64,000 nucleotides of DNA from Rhodovulum sulfidophilum DSM 1374 (lineage in GTDB: Bacteria; Pseudomonadota; Alphaproteobacteria; Rhodobacterales; Rhodobacteraceae), in the NCBI RefSeq assembly GCF_001633165.1, contig NZ_CP015418.1, positions 708,501 through 772,500 on the forward strand, written 5' to 3'. Shown piece after piece: positions 15,920 through 32,209 of the stretch (its first letter is position 1; the number at the start of each line of letters is the position of its first letter). The translations under genes were made by a program, and so were the position numbers. A model generated the notes under the pieces. The model was not told the origin of the DNA, did not search any database, and saw nothing but the letters and a program-made list of their open reading frames with translations.

Positions 15920-16606
15920 TCAGGCCTGCTCACCGATGACGCGCATCGCGTGCTGGATGGTCTCAAAACGGTGGCGATGCACGCATTGCTCCTTCAGCGT
16001 CCGGATGAAGCGTTCGACCATGCCGTTCTGGTGGGGACAGTGTGGGGTGATGAACTCCTGCTTCAGACCGTAGCTGCGGGCGATCTTGGTGAAGTGGTGG
16101 CTGGTGAAGACCAGACCGTTGTCCGACCTCAGCAGGAACTCTTTCTCGACCTTGCCCAAAGTGCCGAACCTGGCGATCAGGGCGTGCTCGAGGGCGGCGC
16201 TGGCGGTCGTGGCTTTGCCGGACTTCGACAGATGCCAGCCCAGCAACTCTCGGTTGTGGCAGTCGATCACCAACGCCAAGGAAGCCCAGCCGTCCTTGCC
16301 CGTCCAGATACGGGCGAGATCCGTCGACCAGCGCTCGTTCGGCGCAGCCGCAACCGACGGCACGGCCTGGATGCGAGGCCGCATGCCCACGGCACGCTTG
16401 CGCACCTGCCAGCCCTTGATCTGGAAGATCCGCTGCACGGTGTTCTTGTTGAACCCCAGGAGCCAAGCCACGGTCCGATAGCCAAAGGACGGCTCTTCCT
16501 CGATCAGCTTCTTGATCGGCTCGGAAAAGCGGGCCTCGACCTTAGGCGCAGCCTTCACCGGCTTGTAGTAGACCGTCCGCCTCGGGATGGGAGCGAGCCC
16601 GTATCT
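15920..16606 (-). pseudogene. IS3-family transposase OrfB, truncated
   Basis: The frame encodes most of an IS3-type OrfB with integrase-core motifs: WSTDLARIW (first Asp), LLRSDNGLVF (second Asp), NGMVERFIRTLKEQ (Glu). The family's C-terminal stretch, with a YN..RPHQAL motif, is missing: the frame runs QHAMRVIGEQA and stops. The N-terminal side merges with unrelated sequence above about 16606, and no orfA is seen. Dead remnant, probably cut on the left by the IS5-like relic. Confidence 0.85.
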
Positions 16607-19945: not shown

Positions 19946-20070
19946 TTGACAGCGAATCCAGCGCGTGCCAGATTGGCATCATCGTCAGGGGTTTGCGGGA
20001 ACGCGAGCCCCTGTTTTCGTTTCAGGCCGCGCCTCGACCTTCAAGGTCAGCCCGAGTGCCCTGGTCACGC
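19946..20070. repeat. Direct repeat, copy 1 (125 bp)
   Basis: Starts TTGACAGCGAATCC and ends CCCTGGTCACGC. It matches copy 2 at 30,119-30,244 with a handful of substitutions near the left end and one 1-base gap. In copy 2 the right half is the 3' end of a HigA-type antitoxin gene, so copy 1 is a truncated antitoxin tail plus its downstream sequence. Confidence 0.85.
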
Positions 20071-21787: not shown

Positions 21788-22474
21788 TTAGACCTTGCGC
21801 GCTAGCTCGGCCGGCCAGTGCAGCTTAATCGGTGCCGCCCACTTGAGCCGGACCCCGTACATCGTCGGCGTCTGGTCGTTGAAGCTGTGAAGGTCGAAGG
21901 TGCCATGGTCTCGTCCTGGGCGAACAACCTTCACCCAGCCTAGCCCCTCTTCGCACTCGCAAACGCATCGCTTGCCTACCGCCTCGCTGGGCACGCTTCC
22001 GTCCGACCAGCGGGTGTAGAACAGCAGATCGCCGGCCGAATAGACCGGCTCCATGCTGTCGCCCTCGATTTCCACCGCCACGATGTTGTGTGGCGACAGA
22101 CCCAGCGGACACTCGACCTGCGGCCCGTCTCCCTTCTCGTAGGTGTCGAAGACGGGCACCCGCGCGCCTGCGCCGACCTTCCCTGCGATGGCTATGGTAG
22201 CGATCCGAGCCGTATCGCTAGGAAGGTCAAAGCCAGTGATCTCAGAGATCAACAGCATTTCTTCGGCCGAGATCGTTCGCTTGCCCAGTGTCATCTTGTT
22301 GATGATCGAGCGGTCGATCTTCTTCTGCACGCGCGCGTCAAGAAGTTCGGCCAAAGCCGACTGGCTCAGCCCGGAGTGATCCAGAGCTTGAATGAGCCAC
22401 TCGTTAAGGGGCGCTGATATCGGGGTTCGCGGAGCCATGTCAGCGAACAGCATATCCGCGGCGCCAACCATCAT
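21788..22474 (-). CDS. Prophage repressor, XRE HTH plus S24 peptidase-like domain
   Basis: 228 residues. N-terminal HTH (LNEWLIQALDHSGLSQSALAELL), linker, then a LexA/CI-type S24 domain with the serine in VEIEGDSMEPVYSAGDLLFY and the lysine region in GKRCVCECEEGLGWVKVV. Such repressors self-cleave after DNA damage. It is divergent from a Cro-like gene with two operator palindromes between them, the classic lysogeny switch. Confidence 0.88.
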   Translation of the reverse strand: MMVGAADMLFADMAPRTPISAPLNEWLIQALDHSGLSQSALAELLDARVQKKIDRSIINKMTLGKRTISAEEMLLISEITGFDLPSDTARIATIAIAGKVGAGARVPVFDTYEKGDGPQVECPLGLSPHNIVAVEIEGDSMEPVYSAGDLLFYTRWSDGSVPSEAVGKRCVCECEEGLGWVKVVRPGRDHGTFDLHSFNDQTPTMYGVRLKWAAPIKLHWPAELARKV

Positions 22475-22888: not shown

Positions 22889-23356
22889 ATGGCCCGCAAC
22901 AACCCCCACGACAGTATCCAAGATGCGGTCTACCGCGCCTACGAGGCGGCGGGCGGCCTGAAAACGTCGTCGAGCATTCTCAACCTGGCCATGTCGACGC
23001 TTTCCTCTTTCAGCGAGTTGCCCCGCAGCGGAAAGCGGTCGGGCGGTCTCGGGCTCAACTACGCCCACGCGCTTTCGGAGGCCCGCCCCGAGGCCGCCGC
23101 CGTCTTCGCGCACCATTTCGCGGCGCTGGCGGGCGGAGTGTTCCAGCCGATCCATGCCGATCCGAAGGTCACCAGCTTGCTTTCCCACTGCAGCATCGTC
23201 GCGAAGGAATGCGGCGAGGCACAGTCCGCGATGATCCGGGCGGCCGCGAACGCGAGCGCCAAGAATTTCGAAGAGGCTGAGAAGGAATGCGCGGAAGCAC
23301 GCGACGTTGTCGACGCTGCGATCGCGATCCTTCGCAAGCAGCGGGGGGCGGCATGA
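22889..23356 (+). CDS. Prophage early protein, possible CII-like regulator
   Basis: 155 residues, largely helical. Pattern: short N-terminal region that could be an HTH (GGLKTSSSILNLAMSTLSSF), then a helical dimerisation-like tail ending AEKECAEARDVVDAAIAILRKQ. Its position right after cro suggests a CII-type or other early regulator, but I do not recognise a named family with certainty. Its stop overlaps the next small ORF. Confidence 0.6.
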   Translation: MARNNPHDSIQDAVYRAYEAAGGLKTSSSILNLAMSTLSSFSELPRSGKRSGGLGLNYAHALSEARPEAAAVFAHHFAALAGGVFQPIHADPKVTSLLSHCSIVAKECGEAQSAMIRAAANASAKNFEEAEKECAEARDVVDAAIAILRKQRGAA

Positions 23357-23439
23357 CGCCCCGTATCGAATCCACTCGCGGCACGGCCCCCGGCTCTGCG
23401 CCATTTCGCGCGGCGGCCGGGGGCAAGGGGGCGGCATGA
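23353..23439 (+). CDS. Very small coupled ORF (28 aa)
   Basis: ATGA overlaps at both ends join it to the preceding gene and to the methylase gene that follows. Composition is Pro/Ala/Gly-rich. It may serve only for translational coupling. Confidence 0.3.
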   Translation: MTPRIESTRGTAPGSAPFRAAAGGKGAA

Positions 23440-24122
23440 CAGTCGCATCTGCGAAATCCCTGTTCCGTGCCACAAAGCCAAAGGCGCGGATCGATCTCCG
23501 GCAGGCGGAAGCATTTGTCGACCTGCCGATCCAGCGCGTTCCCGAAGAAGGGCGCGATCCGCTGGACTATGACCCCACACCTCCGGACGCGACTGCCGCA
23601 TTTCTCGCGGTCGAGGGCGCGCGCATTCGACAACTCGGCGGGCACATCTGGGAACCGGCGGCAGGCGGCGGCCATATGGTGCGGGAAATGCGCCGGTGGG
23701 GCTTCGATGTCACGGCATCCGATTTGGTCGGCCGGGGCTTCCCGGGCGTTTCCCTGCGCAGCTTCTATGACTTCGATACGGCCCCCGCGCCGGTCATCGT
23801 GACCAACCCGCCCTATTGCGAGGTCAACGCGCGCGACGGTGGCGGCCGGTGGCTTCGGCACACCATGTCCCTGCGCCCGCGCTACACCGCCATGCTGCTG
23901 AACGCGGACTGGCCTGCTGCTCGGATCAACGGGATGGATGCCCTGCACGAGCAGTTTCCCATGTCCCGCGTCTACATCTGCTGCTGGAAGATCGACTTTC
24001 GCGGCGGCGGCAGCCCGCCCCAGCGCAACATCTGGGCGGTCTGGGATGCAGATTGGCAAGGCGAGACCGTTTATCGGCGCCTGTTCCGCGAAGGCGGGGA
24101 ACAGCAGGAGGCGCTGCTGTAA
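23436..24122 (+). CDS. Phage DNA adenine methyltransferase-like protein
   Basis: 228 residues. SAM-binding motif I region HIWEPAAGGGHMVREM and catalytic motif IV VTNPPYC, as in N6-adenine methylases of phages. Target specificity unknown; it may protect phage DNA or modify host DNA. The start at 23436 overlaps the previous ORF's TGA, and its TAA overlaps the next ATG (TAATG). Confidence 0.82.
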   Translation: MTVASAKSLFRATKPKARIDLRQAEAFVDLPIQRVPEEGRDPLDYDPTPPDATAAFLAVEGARIRQLGGHIWEPAAGGGHMVREMRRWGFDVTASDLVGRGFPGVSLRSFYDFDTAPAPVIVTNPPYCEVNARDGGGRWLRHTMSLRPRYTAMLLNADWPAARINGMDALHEQFPMSRVYICCWKIDFRGGGSPPQRNIWAVWDADWQGETVYRRLFREGGEQQEALL

Positions 24123-24319
24123 TGACCACACGCACCCTCAAGGTCAGCATCGAGAACGCCGAAGCCGTGATCCGCATGCCTCTGGACGAGGTGCACGGGC
24201 TGCGCGTGGCGCTGCACCCGCGGCTTGCGGGCGAGCCCGAGAGCAACTCCACAAAGGCGATCCGCGAGGCTTTCGACAAGGCCCTCGCCCGGGCGCAGAT
24301 CAGGGCGGGCCGGGTATGA
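24122..24319 (+). CDS. Prophage hypothetical protein (65 aa)
   Basis: MTTRTLKVSIENAEAVIRMP ... FDKALARAQIRAGRV. Coupled to the methylase by TAATG. Its own end overlaps a 15-codon ORF at 24,316-24,363 that leads into the nuclease gene. No family recognised. Confidence 0.5.
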   Translation: MTTRTLKVSIENAEAVIRMPLDEVHGLRVALHPRLAGEPESNSTKAIREAFDKALARAQIRAGRV

Positions 24320-24359
24320 GCCTGCACCGCCACGAGCATTTCAGACAGGAGGTGTCCAG

Positions 24360-24830
24360 ATGAAGGACCGATCCGCCATCGGCCGGCGCAACCGCGCCAA
24401 GGGGGCCGAGCTCGAGCGCGAGGTCGCCGCGGCCCTGCTCGATCTGACCGGCATCGCGTTCCGCCGCAACCTGCGCCAGTGCCAGGAATCCGGCTGGGGC
24501 GATCTGGTGACGGACGATCCGGCCTGGCCGTTCTCGATCGAGTGCAAGCGCCGATCCGCAGGGACCGGCTGCGCTGACGACTGGCGCACTCAGGCGGCGG
24601 CCAGTGCCCGGAAGGCCGGGCAACTGCCCGTGGTGGTCTATCGCTTCGATCGCCGCCCGATCCGCTGCGCCTTGCCGCTGGGCGCGATCCGCGCGGCCTT
24701 TGGCGACGGGGGCGCAGCACCACCCGAGGAATGGGTCGAGTGCAGCCTGGACGGGCTCGCCTATCTCGCCCGCGAAATCATGGCCGGGCCGGGCGCCGCC
24801 GAGATCGAGATCAGGGGGACAGTGAGATGA
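24360..24830 (+). CDS. PD-(D/E)XK-type phage nuclease or resolvase
   Basis: 156 residues. [20 protein letters not shown], then [21 protein letters not shown] with the D...ExK active-site spacing of PD-(D/E)XK enzymes, as in phage Holliday-junction resolvase-like or putative PDDEXK proteins. Good AGGAGG upstream. It ends with an ATGA overlap to the next gene, within the early operon that also carries ssb. Confidence 0.75.
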
Positions 24831-25177
24831 GCGACCCCTGGCTGAAATTCTACACTTCGGATTGGAGGTCGGATCCCGGCCTTCGCATGTGCGGACTGGC
24901 AGCCCGCGGCCTGTGGGTCGAGATGATCTGCCTGATGCACGAGGCCACCCTCGAGGGCGACATCGCCGAGCGCTGCCGCATCGAAATGCGGGCCGTCCGC
25001 GCGGCCAGGGTCCGGGCGCGCAGCGGGTGGGCCGGGACCGAGGCCCCCGAGGACCGCGAGCGCTGCAGCCCCGAGGCCGCAGCCCGGGCCATGCGGGCCG
25101 CCGGTTTCAGCCCGGCGGAAGATTTCACCGGGCCGAAGCGGTTCGGCGGGGCCGCGGATCAGCGGGGGGCTGCCTGA
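24827..25177 (+). pseudogene. Phage replication-initiator-like protein, truncated
   Basis: The first 40 residues ([33 protein letters not shown]) match the N-terminus of long phage replication proteins (DUF1376-like). After HEATLEGD the sequence becomes Arg/Ala-rich and unrelated, and the ORF ends at 116 residues. An internal deletion has probably joined the start of the gene to its far end. The reading frame is open and coupled on both sides, so a short product may still be made. Confidence 0.55.
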
Positions 25178-25644
25178 TGGCCGGAACTGTCAACAAGGTG
25201 ATCCTGATCGGGCATCTGGGGCGCGACCCCGAGGTGCGCAGCTTCCAGAGTGGCGGCAAGGTCTGCAACCTGCGGATCGCCACTTCCGAGACCTGGAAGG
25301 ACCGCAACACCGGCGAGCGTCGCGAGCGGACCGAATGGCATTCGGTCTCGATCTGGGCCGAGGGCTTGGTCCGGCTCGCGGAGCAATACCTGCGCAAGGG
25401 CTCCAAGGTCTATGTGGAGGGCAAGCTCGAAACCCGCAAGTGGCAGGATCAGACGGGGCAGGACCGTTACACGACCGAAATCGCCGTGCGCCCGTTCAAG
25501 GGCGAACTGACGCTTCTGGACAAGCGCGATGGCGACGGCGGCTACGGTGGCGGGGCCAATCAGGGTGGGGGCTACGGTGCTGGCGGGCGGCCAAGCGGTG
25601 ATTTCGACGACGAGATCCCGTTCGCAGCAGAGAGCCGGATCTGA
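25177..25644 (+). CDS. ssb: Single-stranded DNA-binding protein (phage copy)
   Basis: 155 residues. OB fold from [21 protein letters not shown], with [11 protein letters not shown] and [16 protein letters not shown]. Gly-rich linker, then an acidic tip DDEIPF. Unusually, six extra residues (AAESRI) follow the tip; in most bacterial SSBs the tip is the exact C-terminus. Part of the prophage early operon. Confidence 0.93.
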
Positions 25645-25680: not shown

Positions 25681-26370
25681 ATGGGCAAGGGCAGCAAGAC
25701 CCGCGCGCGGGCAGTGAAACTGGCGAAGAAGGCCGAGCTGGCGGGCATGCCGGGGTTGGCGCCGGTCGAGAGGCGCGAGAAGGACGGGCGCATCCGGCGA
25801 TCGACAAAGCCGGGCTACGAGCGCACCGAGGCCGACGTCGCGCTGCGGGCGCGGTGCCGCCAGATGGGCTGGAAGGCGAGGCCGGAGGACATGGCCAAGG
25901 CGCGGGCGCAGAGCCTCGAATGCGATGCGGGTCGCGTGCTGCACCTGTTGTGCGACAGGCCCGATGAGGTCGCCCGCCTCTGGTCCGCGTTCGCCGGGCT
26001 CTGCGGGGCACATGCGGCCTATGCGAGGCGCTACCTCGGCGTCCGGCTCCACCCGAAGACGGCCAAGATCGAGATGCTGATCGAGCGGTTCGAGATCAGC
26101 GGCGACGATGACCTGGACCTGCGGAGCGAGGAGGAAAAGGCCCGCGCCGCCGTCAACAACTGGATGCGCTGGCAAGGCTACCTCGGCCACCTCGACCGCT
26201 GGCAGCAGGCGGCGATCTGCGGCGCCGTGCGCGAGCAAACCGCCCTGATCCGGGACCGGGTTGTGACCGGCGGGGACGGTAGAGACCGCATCGAGCACCA
26301 AGCCACCGACGAAGGGCGGGGCTACGTGCAGGCCTTGCGCAAGCTGGCTGACGTGGTGGAGCGCCGATAG
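25681..26370 (+). CDS. Prophage hypothetical protein (229 aa)
   Basis: Basic N-terminus (MGKGSKTRARAVKLAKKAEL), then a helical protein with ECDAGRVLHLLCDRPDEVARLW and YLGVRLHPKTAKIEML. Similar ORFs occur in Rhodobacteraceae prophages near ssb, but no function is known to me. Last gene of the early operon before the cargo insert. Confidence 0.6.
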   Translation: MGKGSKTRARAVKLAKKAELAGMPGLAPVERREKDGRIRRSTKPGYERTEADVALRARCRQMGWKARPEDMAKARAQSLECDAGRVLHLLCDRPDEVARLWSAFAGLCGAHAAYARRYLGVRLHPKTAKIEMLIERFEISGDDDLDLRSEEEKARAAVNNWMRWQGYLGHLDRWQQAAICGAVREQTALIRDRVVTGGDGRDRIEHQATDEGRGYVQALRKLADVVERR

Positions 26371-26379
26371 CGGGCGGCA

Positions 26380-26610
26380 TCACCTCGGGCGGCAATATCC
26401 CGGCATGGCTCCCCGATAGCGCCCGGCATGCCTCTGGGCTGTGACGTAGGTCCGCTGGGGGTCGTACCGGGCGCAGCGGCCGCAATATCCTTCGGAGATC
26501 AGGATCTCGGCGATGTCGCGCCCGTCCGGAAGATAGCAGCGCCCGACCTGCCGGTCATAAGAGCGTTCCCTGTTGTCGGCACAGCGCTGGGGGCACGGCG
26601 ACCGGCCCAC
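26380..26610 (-). pseudogene. Thermonuclease (SNase-like) C-terminal fragment
   Basis: The translation YDRQVGRCYLPDGRDIAEIL then ISEGYCGRCARYDP matches the C-terminal part of SNase-fold thermonucleases. The N-terminal barrel and catalytic residues are missing because the sequence joins the 3' end of the NACHT gene three bases upstream. The break point dates the NACHT segment as an insertion into, or deletion through, this gene. Confidence 0.5.
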
Positions 26611-26613
26611 GCA

Positions 26614-29478
26614 TCAGCGGCTTTGCCGACGTTGCCGCAGCCATATTTCATAGTCGGCTCGGAAGGCATCCTGCAAATCCTTGCTGTCTTCCTCTGCTTC
26701 ATCGGCCACATGCCAGTGGTCGGGGTAGGAAACGCCCGGAGGCAGGTGGACGAGCCCGAAACCGGCGCGCACACCGAAGGATGATTTGACAACTTCGCTG
26801 TCGATGTCGGACGCTACACTTAAATCCACCAACCTGAAGCGCGTGGCGGCGAATGTGCAGCGCTTCAGGTTGGTGGATTGATCGAGGTTCACCTCGCTGA
26901 GGTTCACCTCGCTGAGGTTCGCCCCGCTGAGGTCCGCCCCGAAGAGGTTCGCCTCGATGAGGTTCGCCCCGCTGAGGTGCGCCCCGCTGAGGTGCGCCCC
27001 GAAGAGGTGCGCCCTGCTGAGGTTCGCCCCGCTGAGGTCCGCCCCGAAGAGGTTCGCCTCGATGAGGTTCGCCCCGCTAAAATTGCTGCCCGCAAACAGC
27101 AAGCGGTTCAACCCGCCATAGGTGGCCTGAAGCCGATCGATAATGTCTCGGGCACCGGTAGCGCGCCAATTGAGTTGGAGGGTTCGAGCCGGTTCGGCGT
27201 CGTTGTTTCGGGCTTCATCCTGAAGCGCGCCCACCATCGTTGAAGCAACAAGAAAGAGTGCCGCTTCGGCGCTGCGCTGCCGTGTCTCAAGCTGCCGGTA
27301 ACTGCCAGGCTCCCGGATTTCGTGAACCGGCATGCCGTTAAGCAGAACCCAGTTAAGCACAGCCTCCACCGATGCCTTCGTTTCGGATAGATCTTGGCCC
27401 TTTTCAAGGAGAAGGCGCGCCTCGTCACGGGTGAAGCGGACCACTTCTTCCGTCAATTTGGCATCGAAGATCATTCTGGCCCAGTCCTGCGCGAGGCGGC
27501 CCTCTTCGACCGGATCTTCGTCTTGCGTAAAGCGCCGGTGCAGTCGCATGGCCTCGGATATCAGTCCGCGGCCTGCAAGGTATTCGCCGAAGCTCTTGTG
27601 GATAAACTCAAATCCCGGATCCAAGCCGTCGGTCCGCCGCGCATGGGTAAGCAGAACCACGCTATCGAGATCCTGCGGCAAGGGAACCCTTTCCTTCCTG
27701 AACTTGTGTGCGGCGTGCACCTCGCGCAGCTTGTCGAAGGTTGCCTCGTCGCTGCCCCGGCCCCCGCCGCGCCACGCCGCCAATCCGAGGCATTCCATCA
27801 GCAGGAAAAACTGCCCTTCGGTGTATGCCGGGACGGCGCTTGCATTCGGCTTCTTCAGGTTTCTCTTTTGGATCTTGCGCAGGATGTCCTCGTAGACCCG
27901 GTTCCGGTTTTCCGCCGCTTCCTGCCAGCGCTCGCCGCAATAGTCGGACAGGATGAACAGATGCAGCAGTAGCGGCTCGACATTCAGGTCCTTCAGGTCG
28001 TCATGGGTGATGCCTTCGGGCAGCGGAGCGTGCAGGTCCTGGCTCCGGCACCACCTTGCCCAATAGTCTTTCCTCTGGTCCCCGGTCAGGTTCTTGGGTA
28101 GGTCTTCCAGGTCCGGGACCTCGACCTTCGTCTTCCGGTCTTCCATGTGTCTTGCGTCGGCGGACCGCAATTCCAGATCCTCGCGCCCCAGTTCGCGGAT
28201 CGGTGCGACATTCAACAACAGGTTCCTGGGCAGCGCCGCCGCTTCCATGCCCCGCTGAATCGCGAGATTCCGGCCGAGGATGAGCGCCCTGACTGGCGTG
28301 CCGTCGCTGTTCAGCCGACCCAGCATCCGGCTGGCATTCTGGATGAAGCTCCGCGTTAGCTCATCGGCTCGTGGTTCGATGAATCTCATTTCGTCGAGTC
28401 CGTCAAAGATCAGCAGTGTCGGCTGAGACCCGTGCTTGATCCAGTCAAGCGCGTTTTCGGGGAAGCCCGGCGAGCCCGCTGATCCGGAGGGGCTGTATCG
28501 GCGTTTCAGGTAGGTTCCGATATCCGCCTCGAGGTCTCTGGTCAGGTGCATGTGCTGAAGTTCGACAAACAGAACCCGGTGCGTTCCTGCAGCAATGGTC
28601 TCGGCCGCGAACGCCTTGGCGAAGGACGACTTGCCAGATCCGGGGCCACCGGCGATCAGGCGCATGTGGTAGCGGTCGGTCATGTCTGCGAGCCAGTCCT
28701 TCGCCGTCTCGTGCAGGTCCTGGACGTGGGCTTGGAACCGGGGCGGTTCATTTTCCTTTTCCTGAGGAAGTTCTTCGTGCCAGTAGCAGCGCAGCCGGAG
28801 GTACAGCTCGCACAGCGGGGTCTTGACGTCGCCTTCGGGCGAGAAGACCGGTTCCATCCGGAACTTGCGCGTGATCCAGTCGTAGTGCCGTGCCCAGGCC
28901 ATGTCTTTTTGCATCTCAAGTGCGGCAGGACCGGCGACCAGCGTTTCGAGCGGTTTGAGAGCGTCGAAATTCGACGAAAACACGTAGGCCGAGGCACGGT
29001 GAAGGCAGCGGCCGAACTCCTGTTCGTAGTAAGCCTGTCCGTGGCCCTCCGGCAAAACCGCAAGCCCGGTCAGATCGAGCGTGAAGCCCAGTACCGCCTG
29101 ACGCGCGTCGGCAAATGCCTGATGGCTCGACGGATGCAGGAGCGCGTTGCGATCGAAGGTGGCGGTGGGCTCATCAGGCAGAGCCGCTTCAAGGAAGGCG
29201 GCAGTGGCGCGGCCCTTGTCTCCGTCTAGGAGGTGGTTCCGGCGAACGCTTATTACGAACTCGGCCGCGGCGAACGTGATTCTCTGGGTCCACCACGACC
29301 ATGCAAGGTTTTCGGGCGTTGCCGTTTTCGTGCCGCGGAGGGCTTCGATCAATTCCACGATTCTGACCGGTGCGGTGTAGGGATTTTGAGCCGCGGCATC
29401 GGCCACGGCGGTGAGTCCGGTCTTGATGGCCCCGAGATAATCCGGGCGGCGTTTGGGCGCAACAAATCGGATCGTCAT
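26614..29478 (-). CDS. NACHT-like STAND NTPase with C-terminal pentapeptide repeats
   Basis: 954 residues from ATG 29478, which has GGAGG eight bases upstream; the frame is open 255 bases further but without signal. Residues 1-270 form a mainly helical N-terminal region with no recognised domain. Walker A is GGPGSGKSS (about 277-285) and the Walker B-type motif is LLIFDGLDEM (about 355-364), with two acidic residues spaced as in NACHT ATPases. A conserved NACHT-family segment FEFIHKSFGEYLAGRGL follows near 623. Residues 798-866 are about 14 tandem A(N/D/H)LSG-type pentapeptide repeats, then a 90-residue tail. Architecture matches bacterial NLR-like (bNACHT/Avs-like) immune sensors: sensing by the repeats, oligomerisation by NACHT, effector at the N-terminus (inference). 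Sits as cargo in a decayed prophage, reverse to the phage operon. Confidence 0.82.
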   Translation of the reverse strand: MTIRFVAPKRRPDYLGAIKTGLTAVADAAAQNPYTAPVRIVELIEALRGTKTATPENLAWSWWTQRITFAAAEFVISVRRNHLLDGDKGRATAAFLEAALPDEPTATFDRNALLHPSSHQAFADARQAVLGFTLDLTGLAVLPEGHGQAYYEQEFGRCLHRASAYVFSSNFDALKPLETLVAGPAALEMQKDMAWARHYDWITRKFRMEPVFSPEGDVKTPLCELYLRLRCYWHEELPQEKENEPPRFQAHVQDLHETAKDWLADMTDRYHMRLIAGGPGSGKSSFAKAFAAETIAAGTHRVLFVELQHMHLTRDLEADIGTYLKRRYSPSGSAGSPGFPENALDWIKHGSQPTLLIFDGLDEMRFIEPRADELTRSFIQNASRMLGRLNSDGTPVRALILGRNLAIQRGMEAAALPRNLLLNVAPIRELGREDLELRSADARHMEDRKTKVEVPDLEDLPKNLTGDQRKDYWARWCRSQDLHAPLPEGITHDDLKDLNVEPLLLHLFILSDYCGERWQEAAENRNRVYEDILRKIQKRNLKKPNASAVPAYTEGQFFLLMECLGLAAWRGGGRGSDEATFDKLREVHAAHKFRKERVPLPQDLDSVVLLTHARRTDGLDPGFEFIHKSFGEYLAGRGLISEAMRLHRRFTQDEDPVEEGRLAQDWARMIFDAKLTEEVVRFTRDEARLLLEKGQDLSETKASVEAVLNWVLLNGMPVHEIREPGSYRQLETRQRSAEAALFLVASTMVGALQDEARNNDAEPARTLQLNWRATGARDIIDRLQATYGGLNRLLFAGSNFSGANLIEANLFGADLSGANLSRAHLFGAHLSGAHLSGANLIEANLFGADLSGANLSEVNLSEVNLDQSTNLKRCTFAATRFRLVDLSVASDIDSEVVKSSFGVRAGFGLVHLPPGVSYPDHWHVADEAEEDSKDLQDAFRADYEIWLRQRRQSR
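26823..26879. repeat. 20-bp perfect inverted repeat inside the NACHT gene
   Basis: Arms at 26,823-26,842 and 26,860-26,879 (first arm begins AATCCACCAACCTG) with a 17-base spacer, just 3' of the pentapeptide-coding repeats on the coding strand. Coding constraint alone does not require it. Possibly an mRNA hairpin, or a gene-conversion product. Confidence 0.6.
26880..27090. repeat. 15-bp tandem repeats coding for pentapeptides
   Basis: About 14 degenerate units of GAGGTTCGCCCCGCT type (plus strand), one per pentapeptide. Two longer near-identical blocks inside suggest recent internal duplication, so the array length may vary between strains. Confidence 0.8.
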
Positions 29479-29724
29479 GGGAAATACCTCCATAGGCGAT
29501 ACGCTATCTGCGGAAGTGCCTAGGTAAAAGTCCGCAGATCCCGGCCGGGGCCGAAAATTTCTCCTGGCGCCACCCGTCGCATCCAAGCGCTTGAAGGCGG
29601 GCAGGCACCTCAGACATTTCGGATTTTCTGCGATGATTTTAAATGCATTTCGCGGATTTGGTGGAGACCCGCAGAAAGCATCTATGGCTGGGAAGAAGCT
29701 CCAAGCGGCCTTTGCCGAGGCCTC

Positions 29725-30069
29725 GTGAACCAAGCGTTAACACTTGCTGTGCTCAGCTTTCTTCACCGAAACATACGGACCATTGATCCAGATATAGGGA
29801 GCAGATGGGTGTACAAGCGGCTGAAACCATTCGTCATGGACACGTGGACCTGGTTCCGCTCGAAATCGGTATTCGTCCAGTGCCTGCTTGTCGTGCCCGT
29901 AACTTGCGCCTTAGCTTTTACGCTTCTGGTGGGGAATATGGGGTTGGCTCTCATGGGCACCGCGATCGCTCTCAACAGTGTGGTCGTTGGGGGGCTCGCA
30001 GGACTGGTTATGACGATCTTTGGGAAGGCCGCTGCAATCATCCTTCGGGACAAGCATCGGACACGCTGA
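29725..30069 (+). CDS. Small membrane protein beside the NACHT gene
   Basis: 114 residues from a GTG start with GAGG upstream. Two C-terminal hydrophobic helices (FVQCLLVVPVTCALAFTLLV; ALMGTAIALNSVVVGGLAGL). Divergent from the NACHT gene across 246 bp, which must hold both promoters. No family recognised. A functional link with the NACHT protein is possible but unproven. Confidence 0.5.
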   Translation: MNQALTLAVLSFLHRNIRTIDPDIGSRWVYKRLKPFVMDTWTWFRSKSVFVQCLLVVPVTCALAFTLLVGNMGLALMGTAIALNSVVVGGLAGLVMTIFGKAAAIILRDKHRTR

Positions 30070-30118
30070 ATTAAATGTGCATTCACGTTCTTGGCGAGTG
30101 CCGTATTTCGTATCCCGC

Positions 30119-30244
30119 TTGACGCCGAATCCGACGCGTGCCAGATTGGCACCATCGTCAGGGGTTTGCGGGAACGCGAGCCCCTGTTTTCGTTTCAGGC
30201 CGACGCCTCGACCTTCAAGGTCAGCCCGAGTGCCCTGGTCACGC
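30119..30244. repeat. Direct repeat, copy 2 (126 bp)
   Basis: Partner of copy 1 at 19,946-20,070. Here the right half codes for the last residues (TRALGLTLKVEASA) of the antitoxin gene, and the left half is its downstream region. About 10 kb separates the copies. Confidence 0.85.
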
Positions 30245-30482
30245 CGAGGATAGTAGACAGCCTCGGGTTTCCCTTCTCACCCAAGGCGCGGTGCAGCGCC
30301 TCCCGCGTGATCCCGGCGGCCTCGGCCGTGTCCTTGATCCCGCGCGCCCTGGCGACGATCCCGATGGCGTGCTTGATGTAGGCGGCGTCACCCGTCTCGA
30401 AGGCGTCGGAGAGCAGCATGGCTTGCGCTTCCGGCGTGTCGAGATATTCGGCCGCGTCGAAGCGGGTAGTTTCGATAGGCAT
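30195..30482 (-). CDS. HigA-like antitoxin (addiction module antidote, HTH)
   Basis: 95 residues. N-terminal ETTRFDAAEYLDTPEAQAML is typical of the addiction-module antidote family that follows a RelE-like killer. Then an HTH (TAEAAGITREALHRALGEKG) for operator binding. It starts nine bases after the toxin stop on the same strand; toxin-first order is the rule for this type. The 3' end lies in the direct repeat. Confidence 0.88.
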   Translation of the reverse strand: MPIETTRFDAAEYLDTPEAQAMLLSDAFETGDAAYIKHAIGIVARARGIKDTAEAAGITREALHRALGEKGNPRLSTILGVTRALGLTLKVEASA

Positions 30483-30491
30483 GGTTGCCTC

Positions 30492-30782
30492 CTAAAGTTC
30501 CTTGGCCATGGTCTTGGCCTTTTCGATGTCCCGGCGCTGGGAGCCTTTGTCGCCGCCGCAGAGCAGGATGATGATCGTCTCGCCCTGCTGGACGAAGTAG
30601 ACGCGGTATCCCGGGCCGTAGGTGATCCGAAGTTCACCGATGCCGTCGAAGAACTTGGCGTCGCCCATGAGGCCAGCTTCAAGCCGGGCGATCCTGATCG
30701 CGATGCGGGCTTGCGCCGTGCGGTCTTTCAGCTTGCGAAGCCATTTCGAGAACTCGGCGGACTGGTGAATTTCGTAACGCAT
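30492..30782 (-). CDS. RelE/HigB-type toxin (addiction module killer protein)
   Basis: 96 residues from ATG 30782 (MRYEIHQSAEFSKWLRKLKD). RelE-fold features: IRIARLEAGLMGDAKFFDGI, GELRITYGPGYRVYFVQQGE, then IILLCGGDKGSQRRDI. Members cleave mRNA or otherwise block translation when freed from the antitoxin. An upstream in-frame ATG (30821) is less likely. It forms a two-gene operon with the HTH antitoxin and may stabilise the accessory region. Confidence 0.9.
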   Translation of the reverse strand: MRYEIHQSAEFSKWLRKLKDRTAQARIAIRIARLEAGLMGDAKFFDGIGELRITYGPGYRVYFVQQGETIIILLCGGDKGSQRRDIEKAKTMAKEL

Positions 30783-30964
30783 GAGTGAAATATAGATCAC
30801 GCGCTCGGGCCATGCAAGCATAAAGTGATCTAAATGTCACATGCGCGCTCGCCCATACCTCGCCCGTTTCGTCCCCCTCATTCCGAAGGGCGAGCAGGCC
30901 CGACCTGCGGCAATGCCAGAGTCTGGCCGCCAACCATGCACCCCGATCAGACCGGGAGACCGAA

Positions 30965-31161: not shown

Positions 31162-31968
31162 GTGGCGCAACACCGACCGAGCGCGTCGGAGCGGGGCTAC
31201 GGCAGGGGCTGGAAGGCGCTGCGCAAGCGGGTGATGCAGCGGGACAGCTGGCTGTGCCAGCCCTGCCTGCGCAGGGGGCGCGTCACGCCCGCCACCGAGT
31301 GCGATCACGTGGTGCCCAAGGCGCAATATGCCGATCCGGAGAACGAGCATGTCGTGACCGACCTGCCGGTGCTCGACAGCGCCACCTATATCGCCGCCGA
31401 CAATGGCGAGCCGCTGGTGCTCGACATGGGCGAGCTGCCGGGCGAGACCGGCGTTGCCCGCGGCCAGCGGCTGATGAAGCTGGCGCTCCTGAAGGGCCGC
31501 CGCCAGAAGCAGGTCACGCTGCCCTGTTCGCTTGCCGCCTGGCCGGTGCGGCTCGGCGACACTATCCGGGTCTCGCTGCCGCGCCGGGGCTGGACGGCGA
31601 AGACCTTCGAGGTCACCGGCCGCACCGTCCATATCGGCGAGGACGGGGTCCGCGTGACGCTCAGTTGCATCGAGACCGGCCCCGCCATCTTCGACTGGCG
31701 GACCTCGGAGGAGATGCCCAAGCCCGCGGGCGGCGTGCCCACCCTGCCCTCGCCGACCGCAAAACCGGTGGTCTCGGCGCCGACTATGACCGAGGAATTG
31801 TACGAGACCCGCGGCGGCGGCGGGGTGAAGACGCGGGTCCGGCTGGCGGCCACGACCGACAATCCCTTCATTGACGCCTGGCAGTTCGCCTGTGCGGTAC
31901 CGCCCGGTGCAATGCCGGGCGGATCGAGGGCATCGCGGAAGCGGCGGGTTAACTTGACACTGATCTAA
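31162..31968 (+). pseudogene. HNH endonuclease fused to a phage tail-protein fragment
   Basis: GTG-initiated frame of 268 residues. Residues 1-60 are a phage HNH endonuclease (YGRGWKALRKRVMQRDSWLC, then CDHVVPKAQYADPE), normally next to the small terminase gene. From about residue 66 (VVTDLPVLDSATYIAADNGE onward) it is a piece of a large tail or host-specificity protein (RLMKLALLKGRRQKQVTLPC; VRLGDTIRVSLPRRGW). The in-frame junction near 31,350 is a deletion that removed the terminase, head and most tail genes. The 3' end is also abnormal, ending in a short unrelated tail. Product unlikely to be functional. Confidence 0.75.
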
Positions 31969-32134
31969 GCAGGCGTGATCGGATCAGGCGGTCAGATGTC
32001 CGCTGTGGCTTCGCCTTCGTTCCCAATTCAACTTGCCAATTTCTTGCCACTAGGCGACGCAAATTCATGCTTCGTTCTGCATGATGTGCGGCTTTAGGTT
32101 TCTTGGGGAAATATCGGGTTTTCAGTGGTTTAGG

Positions 32135-32209
<75 letters not shown>

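Follow-up and report, generated by a model that had tools for sequence, protein, structure and literature searches.

Rhodovulum sulfidophilum DSM 1374 carries, on the minus strand of a 64,000-nucleotide stretch of contig NZ_CP015418.1 (positions 708,501 to 772,500; this whole stretch is the window in what follows), a 954-codon gene whose product is, judged by its sequence and predicted structure, a NACHT-clade STAND protein built on the plan of the animal NLRs, with an N-terminal NNH3 domain, a central NACHT module and a run of C-terminal pentapeptide repeats. By comparison with related phage DNA, the gene is cargo of a prophage which itself appears incomplete and cryptic. The reading we favour, with a probability of about 0.58 and largely by analogy with characterised immune proteins, is that of an NLR-type anti-phage switch, a phage-borne cargo gene that would protect the lysogen with NNH3 as its output; any particular activity of NNH3 is rated much lower than this reading as a whole. 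The gene and its predicted parts are as follows.

26614 to 29478, minus: NNH3-NACHT-pentapeptide (NLR-like STAND) gene, 954 amino acids (aa) (open reading frame, Pfam, relatives, structure model)
28930 to 29478, minus: N-terminal helical domain, residues 1-183, divergent NNH3, predicted effector or adaptor (hhalign, model)
28669 to 28929, minus: conserved helix and linker into the NTPase, residues 184-270, with W195, R197, H198, W201, F212, Y226 and R230 (alignment, model; boundary approximate)
28189 to 28668, minus: NACHT nucleotide-binding domain, residues 271-430, with Walker A at 277-285, Walker B at 355-363, and R403 (Pfam, alignment, model; boundaries approximate)
27559 to 28188, minus: helical domain 1 (HD1) and winged-helix region, residues 431-640, with H627 (model, NLRC4 alignment; boundaries approximate)
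27109 to 27558, minus: helical region like helical domain 2 (HD2), residues 641-790 (model; boundaries approximate)
26878 to 27087, minus: run of 14 pentapeptides, residues 798-867, predicted to form a sensor beta-helix and coded by similar 15-nt repeats (Pfam, repeat count)

Architecture and relatives of the NACHT protein

The reading frame runs from an ATG at 29478 to a stop at 26614 with zero internal stops. The same frame remains open up to a TTG at 29733, but the ATG was preferred because full-length relatives begin at the residue equivalent to it. Walker A (GGPGSGKSS, residues 277-285), Walker B (LLIFDGLDE, residues 355-363) and the stretch FEFIHKSFGEYLA (residues 623-635), with its FIHKSFGEYLA motif, were all located, as expected from a preliminary description of this DNA that had announced an intact 954-codon gene with Walker A, a DGLDE Walker B and a post-NACHT motif. 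Across an alignment of 61 sequences (query included), G277, G280, G282, K283, S284, S285, D359, G360, D362, E363, H627 and K628 are invariant. The "about 14" pentapeptides of that description are exactly 14 regular units in unbroken tandem, from SNFSG to VNLDQ (residues 798-867), and together with a Pfam Pentapeptide match (E 2.9e-19) they bear out the repeat-type C-terminus it had proposed. Frame length, motifs and 68 relatives at E≤0.001 exclude a chance origin of the gene.

Assignment to the NACHT/STAND proteins, also suggested beforehand, is upheld by the P-loop and acidic Walker B, by the Pfam NACHT model (PF05729; E 1.2e-4, though at 22.4 bits below its cut-off) and by the predicted fold. 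The full-length structure model (predicted local distance difference test score, pLDDT, 89.8) contains the succession of nucleotide-binding domain, HD1, winged-helix domain (WHD) and HD2 characteristic of NLRs, and matches NLRC4, NLRP3 and NOD2 across NACHT-WHD-HD2 with about 11-17% identity in structure alignments, the NLR structures aligning from about residue 185. His627 falls on His443 of NLRC4 within an FHKSFxEY(L/T)AGR stretch that by sequence alone matches weakly (E 0.012-0.08); NLRC4 H443 is the WHD histidine that contacts ADP. The NACHT model is matched at E≤0.01 in 49 of 49 sequences (query included), and the relatives P0024 (30.8 bits) and P0139 (29.2 bits) exceed its gathering cut-off of 26.7 bits.

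For the N-terminus, the suggestion of a possible new effector class is unsupported, because profile comparison identifies residues 1-230 as a divergent version of NNH3 (PF22735), a domain family that Pfam already lists. The hhalign comparison with NNH3-bearing relatives gave a probability of 99.4% over residues 2-232 and 218 columns (a single run of a 52-row against a 7-row profile, with P0060 left out of both and one short row dropped). The Pfam NNH3 model itself (gathering score 27 bits) is not listed for the query at E≤1 and matches the alphaproteobacterial branch at E≤0.01 in 4 of 49 members; P0139, 39% identical to the query over 957 columns, is matched at E 1.2e-4 (22.6 bits), and all five distant relatives scanned (P0061, P0063, P0066, P0067 and P0068) pass the gathering score. 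Structure prediction had been advised for this region: residues 1-233 modelled separately gave a confident model (pLDDT 89.5) and a fold search with it found no solved structure alike. No characterised NNH3 activity was found in the open-access literature. Some specific biochemical roles were considered and rejected: an enzymatic N-terminus (no recognisable conserved catalytic set, the conserved residues being W60, W195, H198, W201, F212, Y226 and R230), a membrane-spanning N-terminus (highest 19-residue hydropathy 1.07, helix 14-31 being fairly hydrophobic and weakly amphipathic), and a DNA-mimicking helix of the Qnr/MfpA type (residues 791-890 hold 8 acidic and 6 basic residues).

A single search, in which the best 7992 candidates were scored, gave at least 213 members of the family at E≤0.001. 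Proteins combining NNH3, NACHT and pentapeptides also occur in cyanobacteria, Stygiobacter, Pseudoalteromonas and the archaeon Methanothrix, as a single open frame in all five test genomes chosen, and no characterised member was found. The nearest protein, from Rhodovulum sp. BSW8, is 88% identical over two thirds; identity to distant relatives is 20-29% in the eight most distant alignment rows and 25-28% in the best segments at five loci. Distribution is patchy, with relatives at E≤1e-40 (own genome counted) in 1 of 16 genus, 3 of 394 family and 2 of 385 class genomes. The regular repeat run, counted with a strict pattern that stops at irregular units, varies from 7 to 52 units with a median of 20 in 53 sequences including the query. 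Hwanghaeella has two NACHT-family paralogues (P0007 and P0012), apparently on one contig.

Prophage context and the cargo slot

The NACHT gene lies antisense to the plus-strand early phage genes and has phage genes on both sides, which agrees with its earlier placement as a gene reversed relative to a phage operon. Its G+C content at third codon positions is 0.746, compared to 0.779-0.870 for four phage and core genes. The surrounding features are listed below; the early region also includes a Cro-like protein.

21788 to 22474, minus: phage repressor, S24 peptidase, CI-like (profile scans)
23307 to 25644, plus: phage early genes for a DNA methyltransferase, a RusA-like/PDDEXK nuclease and a single-stranded DNA-binding protein (profile scans)
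25681 to 26370, plus: conserved phage gene of 229 aa that borders the slot on the left (related genes in Paracoccus phages Pkon1 and Pyei1)
26380 to 26610, minus: shortened (76 aa) relative of a 148-158 aa gene like staphylococcal nuclease (SNase-like); homology ends at the start of the cassette
26575 to 30114, no strand: cargo cassette, lacking in all five sister prophages compared (approximate limits, drawn where homology stops)
29809 to 30069, plus: gene for an 86-aa membrane protein, divergent from the NACHT gene and conserved in alphaproteobacteria (sequence, relatives)
30159 to 30186, plus: terminator-like hairpin that closes the slot on the right (another copy at about 19986-20013)
30195 to 30821, minus: toxin-antitoxin pair (antitoxin PF21716, 30195-30482; toxin PF05973/phrog_3445, 30492-30821)
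31162 to 31968, plus: start of an HNH endonuclease that continues in frame into a piece of tail fibre, pointing to internal loss
32135 to 32209, minus: tRNA-Thr(GGT), probable integration site; its 3' end is the start of shared chromosomal DNA

That the gene is prophage cargo, as the preliminary description held, is concluded because the slot in which it lies is filled differently in sister prophages and because two named Paracoccus phages carry relatives of the flanking 229-aa gene. In Pkon1 the relative stands directly ahead of the terminase gene with a gap of 433 bp, and in Pyei1 a histidine kinase gene and a hypothetical gene lie between the two. Five sister prophage segments were compared, L079, L080, L081 (genome G400), L082 (genome G398) and L083 (a second segment in the genome of the window), of which L080 and L081 are nearly alike. 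All five share the flanking DNA and hold no relative of residues 1-780; a sixth segment, L098, with a partial flanking gene and a slot length left unmeasured, is also without a NACHT relative. The slot measures 3793 bp here, 605 bp in both L080 and L081, 2541 bp in L082 and 2261 bp in L083, while L079 has no hairpin and a partial flanking gene. The SNase-like gene is cut by the cassette and occurs in its longer version in L082 and L083. Other genes occupy the slot in three of the five sisters, with nothing convincing in L080 and L081. The cargo consists of a 382-aa protein without Pfam or PADLOC match in L079 (5334-6482), a 230-aa protein and a ribosomal S17-like fusion (E 3.2e-21) in L082 (6033-7356), and an SDH-type ClpP-like protease with a 134-aa protein in L083 (10879-12149). 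None of the other eight sequences in the comparison codes for any of these five proteins, which are candidates for unrecognised defence genes.

Terminator-like sites are about as numerous as expected (5 found, 4.1 expected); the one at 30159-30186 has the longest stem, with 12 pairs, and its stretch folds better than shuffled sequences (z -3.3). It is contained in a 125-nt direct repeat (19946-20070 and 30119-30244), found at the right border of the slot in four of the five sisters, with the other copy 10 kb upstream. These repeats were considered as attachment sites and rejected, as they hold the terminator-like hairpin common to the sister prophages. Integration probably took place at the tRNA-Thr gene. 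Among the matches listed, 14 of 15 other genomes of the genus share the DNA that starts with the tRNA. In 13 of these 14 the similarity breaks off no more than 16 bases from the tRNA 3' end, and in G398 it extends 154 bases further. In G400 the tRNA 3' end recurs beside DNA like the prophage end of the window (97% over 31890-32182), behaving as an attachment site would. In the window this 48-nt core is present once, so the opposite end of the prophage does not show.

The HNH/tail-fibre fusion, and the failure to find integrase or terminase families among the open reading frames scanned (part of those in the window), led us to regard the prophage as incomplete and cryptic. A tail-fibre piece (31318-31892) has six further copies in the genome, 94-96% identical, which points to many related prophages or remnants. 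A transposase gene fragment of 660 bp (15930-16589) likewise recurs at six other places, with 100% identity.

Proposed function and competing explanations

Anti-phage activity of the NACHT gene may reasonably be inferred by analogy, and a plausible course of events can be outlined. A single-protein STAND/NACHT switch, brought in by a temperate phage that is now a cryptic prophage, would guard the lysogen against other phages. The resting protein would be closed and ADP-bound until the surface formed by HD2 and the pentapeptide helix, the latter here inferred by analogy to be the sensor, is engaged by a product of the phage or by a host protein that infection has altered. Exchange of ADP for ATP would then open the protein and allow oligomerisation via the NACHT domains, and the clustered NNH3 domains would stop the cell (abortive infection), which is the least certain step. 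The steps beyond architecture are modelled on animal NLRs as generally understood and on bacterial NACHT/STAND proteins (PMC12169576, PMC10907252, PMC13092281, PMC12724215).

Several results weigh against this reading. PADLOC 2.0 gave no significant match for the protein and listed no Avs model (best E 0.009, TRIP13), and the five sister cargo proteins had no convincing PADLOC match (the best, at E 8.4e-4, covers part of a CARF-PDDEXK model). The Pfam NACHT match, although positive by E-value, scores 22.4 bits and thus stays under the cut-off of 26.7. A pattern scan of viral contigs found no relative in the 600 stretches tested, none of the phage records holds 80% of the NACHT protein, and a simple scan of 26300-30400 found no sigma-70-like promoter. 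In P0002 and P0011, the two relatives closest by identity, similarity fades near residue 650-670 and the pentapeptides are missing, which hints at decay or cost. Finally, one of seven close-family loci showed a defence gene nearby: in L016, the sole locus whose neighbours were profile-scanned, a gene for a type IV restriction enzyme (PADLOC E 1.4e-67) stops 66 bp short of the homologue's longest predicted frame. At the other six loci the neighbours were named by eye only, and the close-family flanks appear to be mostly ordinary chromosomal genes, not defence islands. A consistent housekeeping setting, which the preliminary description had named as an argument against defence, was not seen in that form, as the seven loci show six different contexts (that of L007 and L010 is common to both, and L008 stops at a contig edge).

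A recently acquired gene decaying in a dead prophage, with no present role, might account for the incomplete state of the prophage, for the truncation of P0002 and P0011 and for the single occurrence in the window of the 48-nt core at the tRNA end; the intact 954-codon frame, the preserved invariant sites and the confident complete model argue against such a passenger, which we consider quite improbable. It is also unlikely that the switch serves the prophage or its host outside defence, by timing lysis, lysogeny or another stress response. The alphaproteobacterial LypABC system has been co-opted for the release of gene transfer agents (PMC13236601), and the close-family homologues lie mostly outside defence islands as judged by eye, but the patchy distribution, the variable cargo slot and the highly variable repeat sensor suit conflict genes better than regulators, and the sister prophages are without the NACHT gene.

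The neighbouring genes bear on whether an anti-phage switch would act alone. Among the 40 largest clusters of neighbours (open reading frames of at least 90 aa, 63 neighbourhoods) no recurrent partner-like gene was found, the largest cluster after the NACHT family itself being ABC-transporter ATPases (named by eye, 14 loci). As a single gene at varied sites without recurrent partner, the NACHT gene thus suggests a self-contained system. Since there is neither a transmembrane segment nor a visible catalytic signature, nor such a partner gene, NNH3 is more likely a non-enzymatic effector, driven by oligomerisation and acting alone, than an enzyme.

One candidate partner is the 86-aa membrane protein: NNH3 could be an adaptor, harmless in itself, that recruits a separate effector, either this protein or one of the host, much as in LypA-LypB of Caulobacter an NLR-like protein works through a partner (PMC13236601). 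The 86-aa gene shares its cassette with the NACHT gene, the two starts being about 330 bp apart. Its product shares 97% identity with an R. sulfidophilum protein across 65% of the query, and searches of Pfam, PHROG and PADLOC gave no match. It is part of a conserved family, with 63 listed proteins including that of the window, in which TLLVGNMGLALMGTA is invariant in 13 aligned members. The gene is as rare as the NACHT family, occurring in 2 of 198 family genomes (own included) versus 3 of 394. Against an adaptor stand the lack of any 86-aa relative in 72 loci searched, NACHT homologue neighbourhoods included, the lack of a recurring partner in the neighbour clusters, and the position of the second copy in the same genome (G000:C1:109746-109994) and of the G135 copy among other genes, so that an adaptor function seems rather doubtful.

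If the anti-phage switch is real, it would be an immune protein of NLR plan with a pentapeptide beta-helix as sensor and NNH3 as output, neither of which was found characterised in the open-access literature. The role of NNH3 becomes a testable question, with a large family, a confident model, and one gene and an ATP-site mutant to work with. It is tempting to speculate, though only tentatively, that NNH3 is a functionally new and widely used immune effector or oligomeric signalling fold of bacterial and archaeal NLR-type proteins, triggered through a pentapeptide beta-helix rapidly retuned (7 to 52 units) to new phage cues, and that temperate phages of the Rhodobacterales have, from the 229-aa gene to the early terminator, a defence hotspot not described before, with the 382-aa protein, the S17-like fusion and the SDH-type protease pair as further unrecognised systems among its cargo.

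Comparison with known systems

The cargo slot resembles the defence hotspots described for prophages and satellites of the P2 and P4 kind, slots of 1-5 kb with high turnover between two conserved genes (PMC9122126). Here a variable slot of 0.6-3.8 kb extends from the 229-aa gene to a terminator-like hairpin; it differs in belonging to Rhodovulum/Paracoccus temperate phages, in having been compared across this prophage, five sisters and two named phages, and in that a defence role of its cargo is a candidate one. It offers a comparative handle for more phage-borne genes of this sort in alphaproteobacteria.

The protein shares with the Avs (AVAST) systems the plan of a single-protein STAND sensor with an N-terminal effector and a repeat-type C-terminus (PMC10907252). 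In characterised Avs, C-terminal sensors such as tetratricopeptide repeats bind phage proteins (PMC10907252); Avs1-3 sense the terminase and Avs4 the portal (PMC12724215). The present protein differs in its predicted beta-helix and in having no PADLOC Avs match. Pentapeptide repeats are mentioned in related conflict systems (PMC8195603, PMC7159879), and no experimental study of the NNH3-NACHT-pentapeptide architecture was recognised in the open-access literature, subscription papers being outside this scope. With the bNACHT proteins the likeness is a central NACHT between N- and C-terminal regions: bNACHT25 has an N-terminal PD-(D/E)XK nuclease and NCH1, and clade 14 carries SNaCT and, as a further likeness, is described as without readily discernible effector domains (PMC12169576). 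The NNH3 domain and pentapeptide helix set the present protein apart.

With the animal NLRs (NLRC4, NOD2, NLRP3) the likeness covers the NACHT, winged-helix and HD2 fold and the histidine stretch. Animal NLRs begin with a CARD or PYD and end in leucine-rich repeats, whereas the Rhodovulum protein has NNH3 and pentapeptides in place of these end domains. The closest counterparts are the NNH3-NACHT-pentapeptide proteins of other lineages, which have the same three parts in identical order with homologous N-terminal domains (99.4% probability). The alphaproteobacterial branch is distinguished from them by an extra SPD-containing stretch ahead of the NTPase and by a C-terminal cap with the consensus LT..Q...FG...T.LP..L..P..W.

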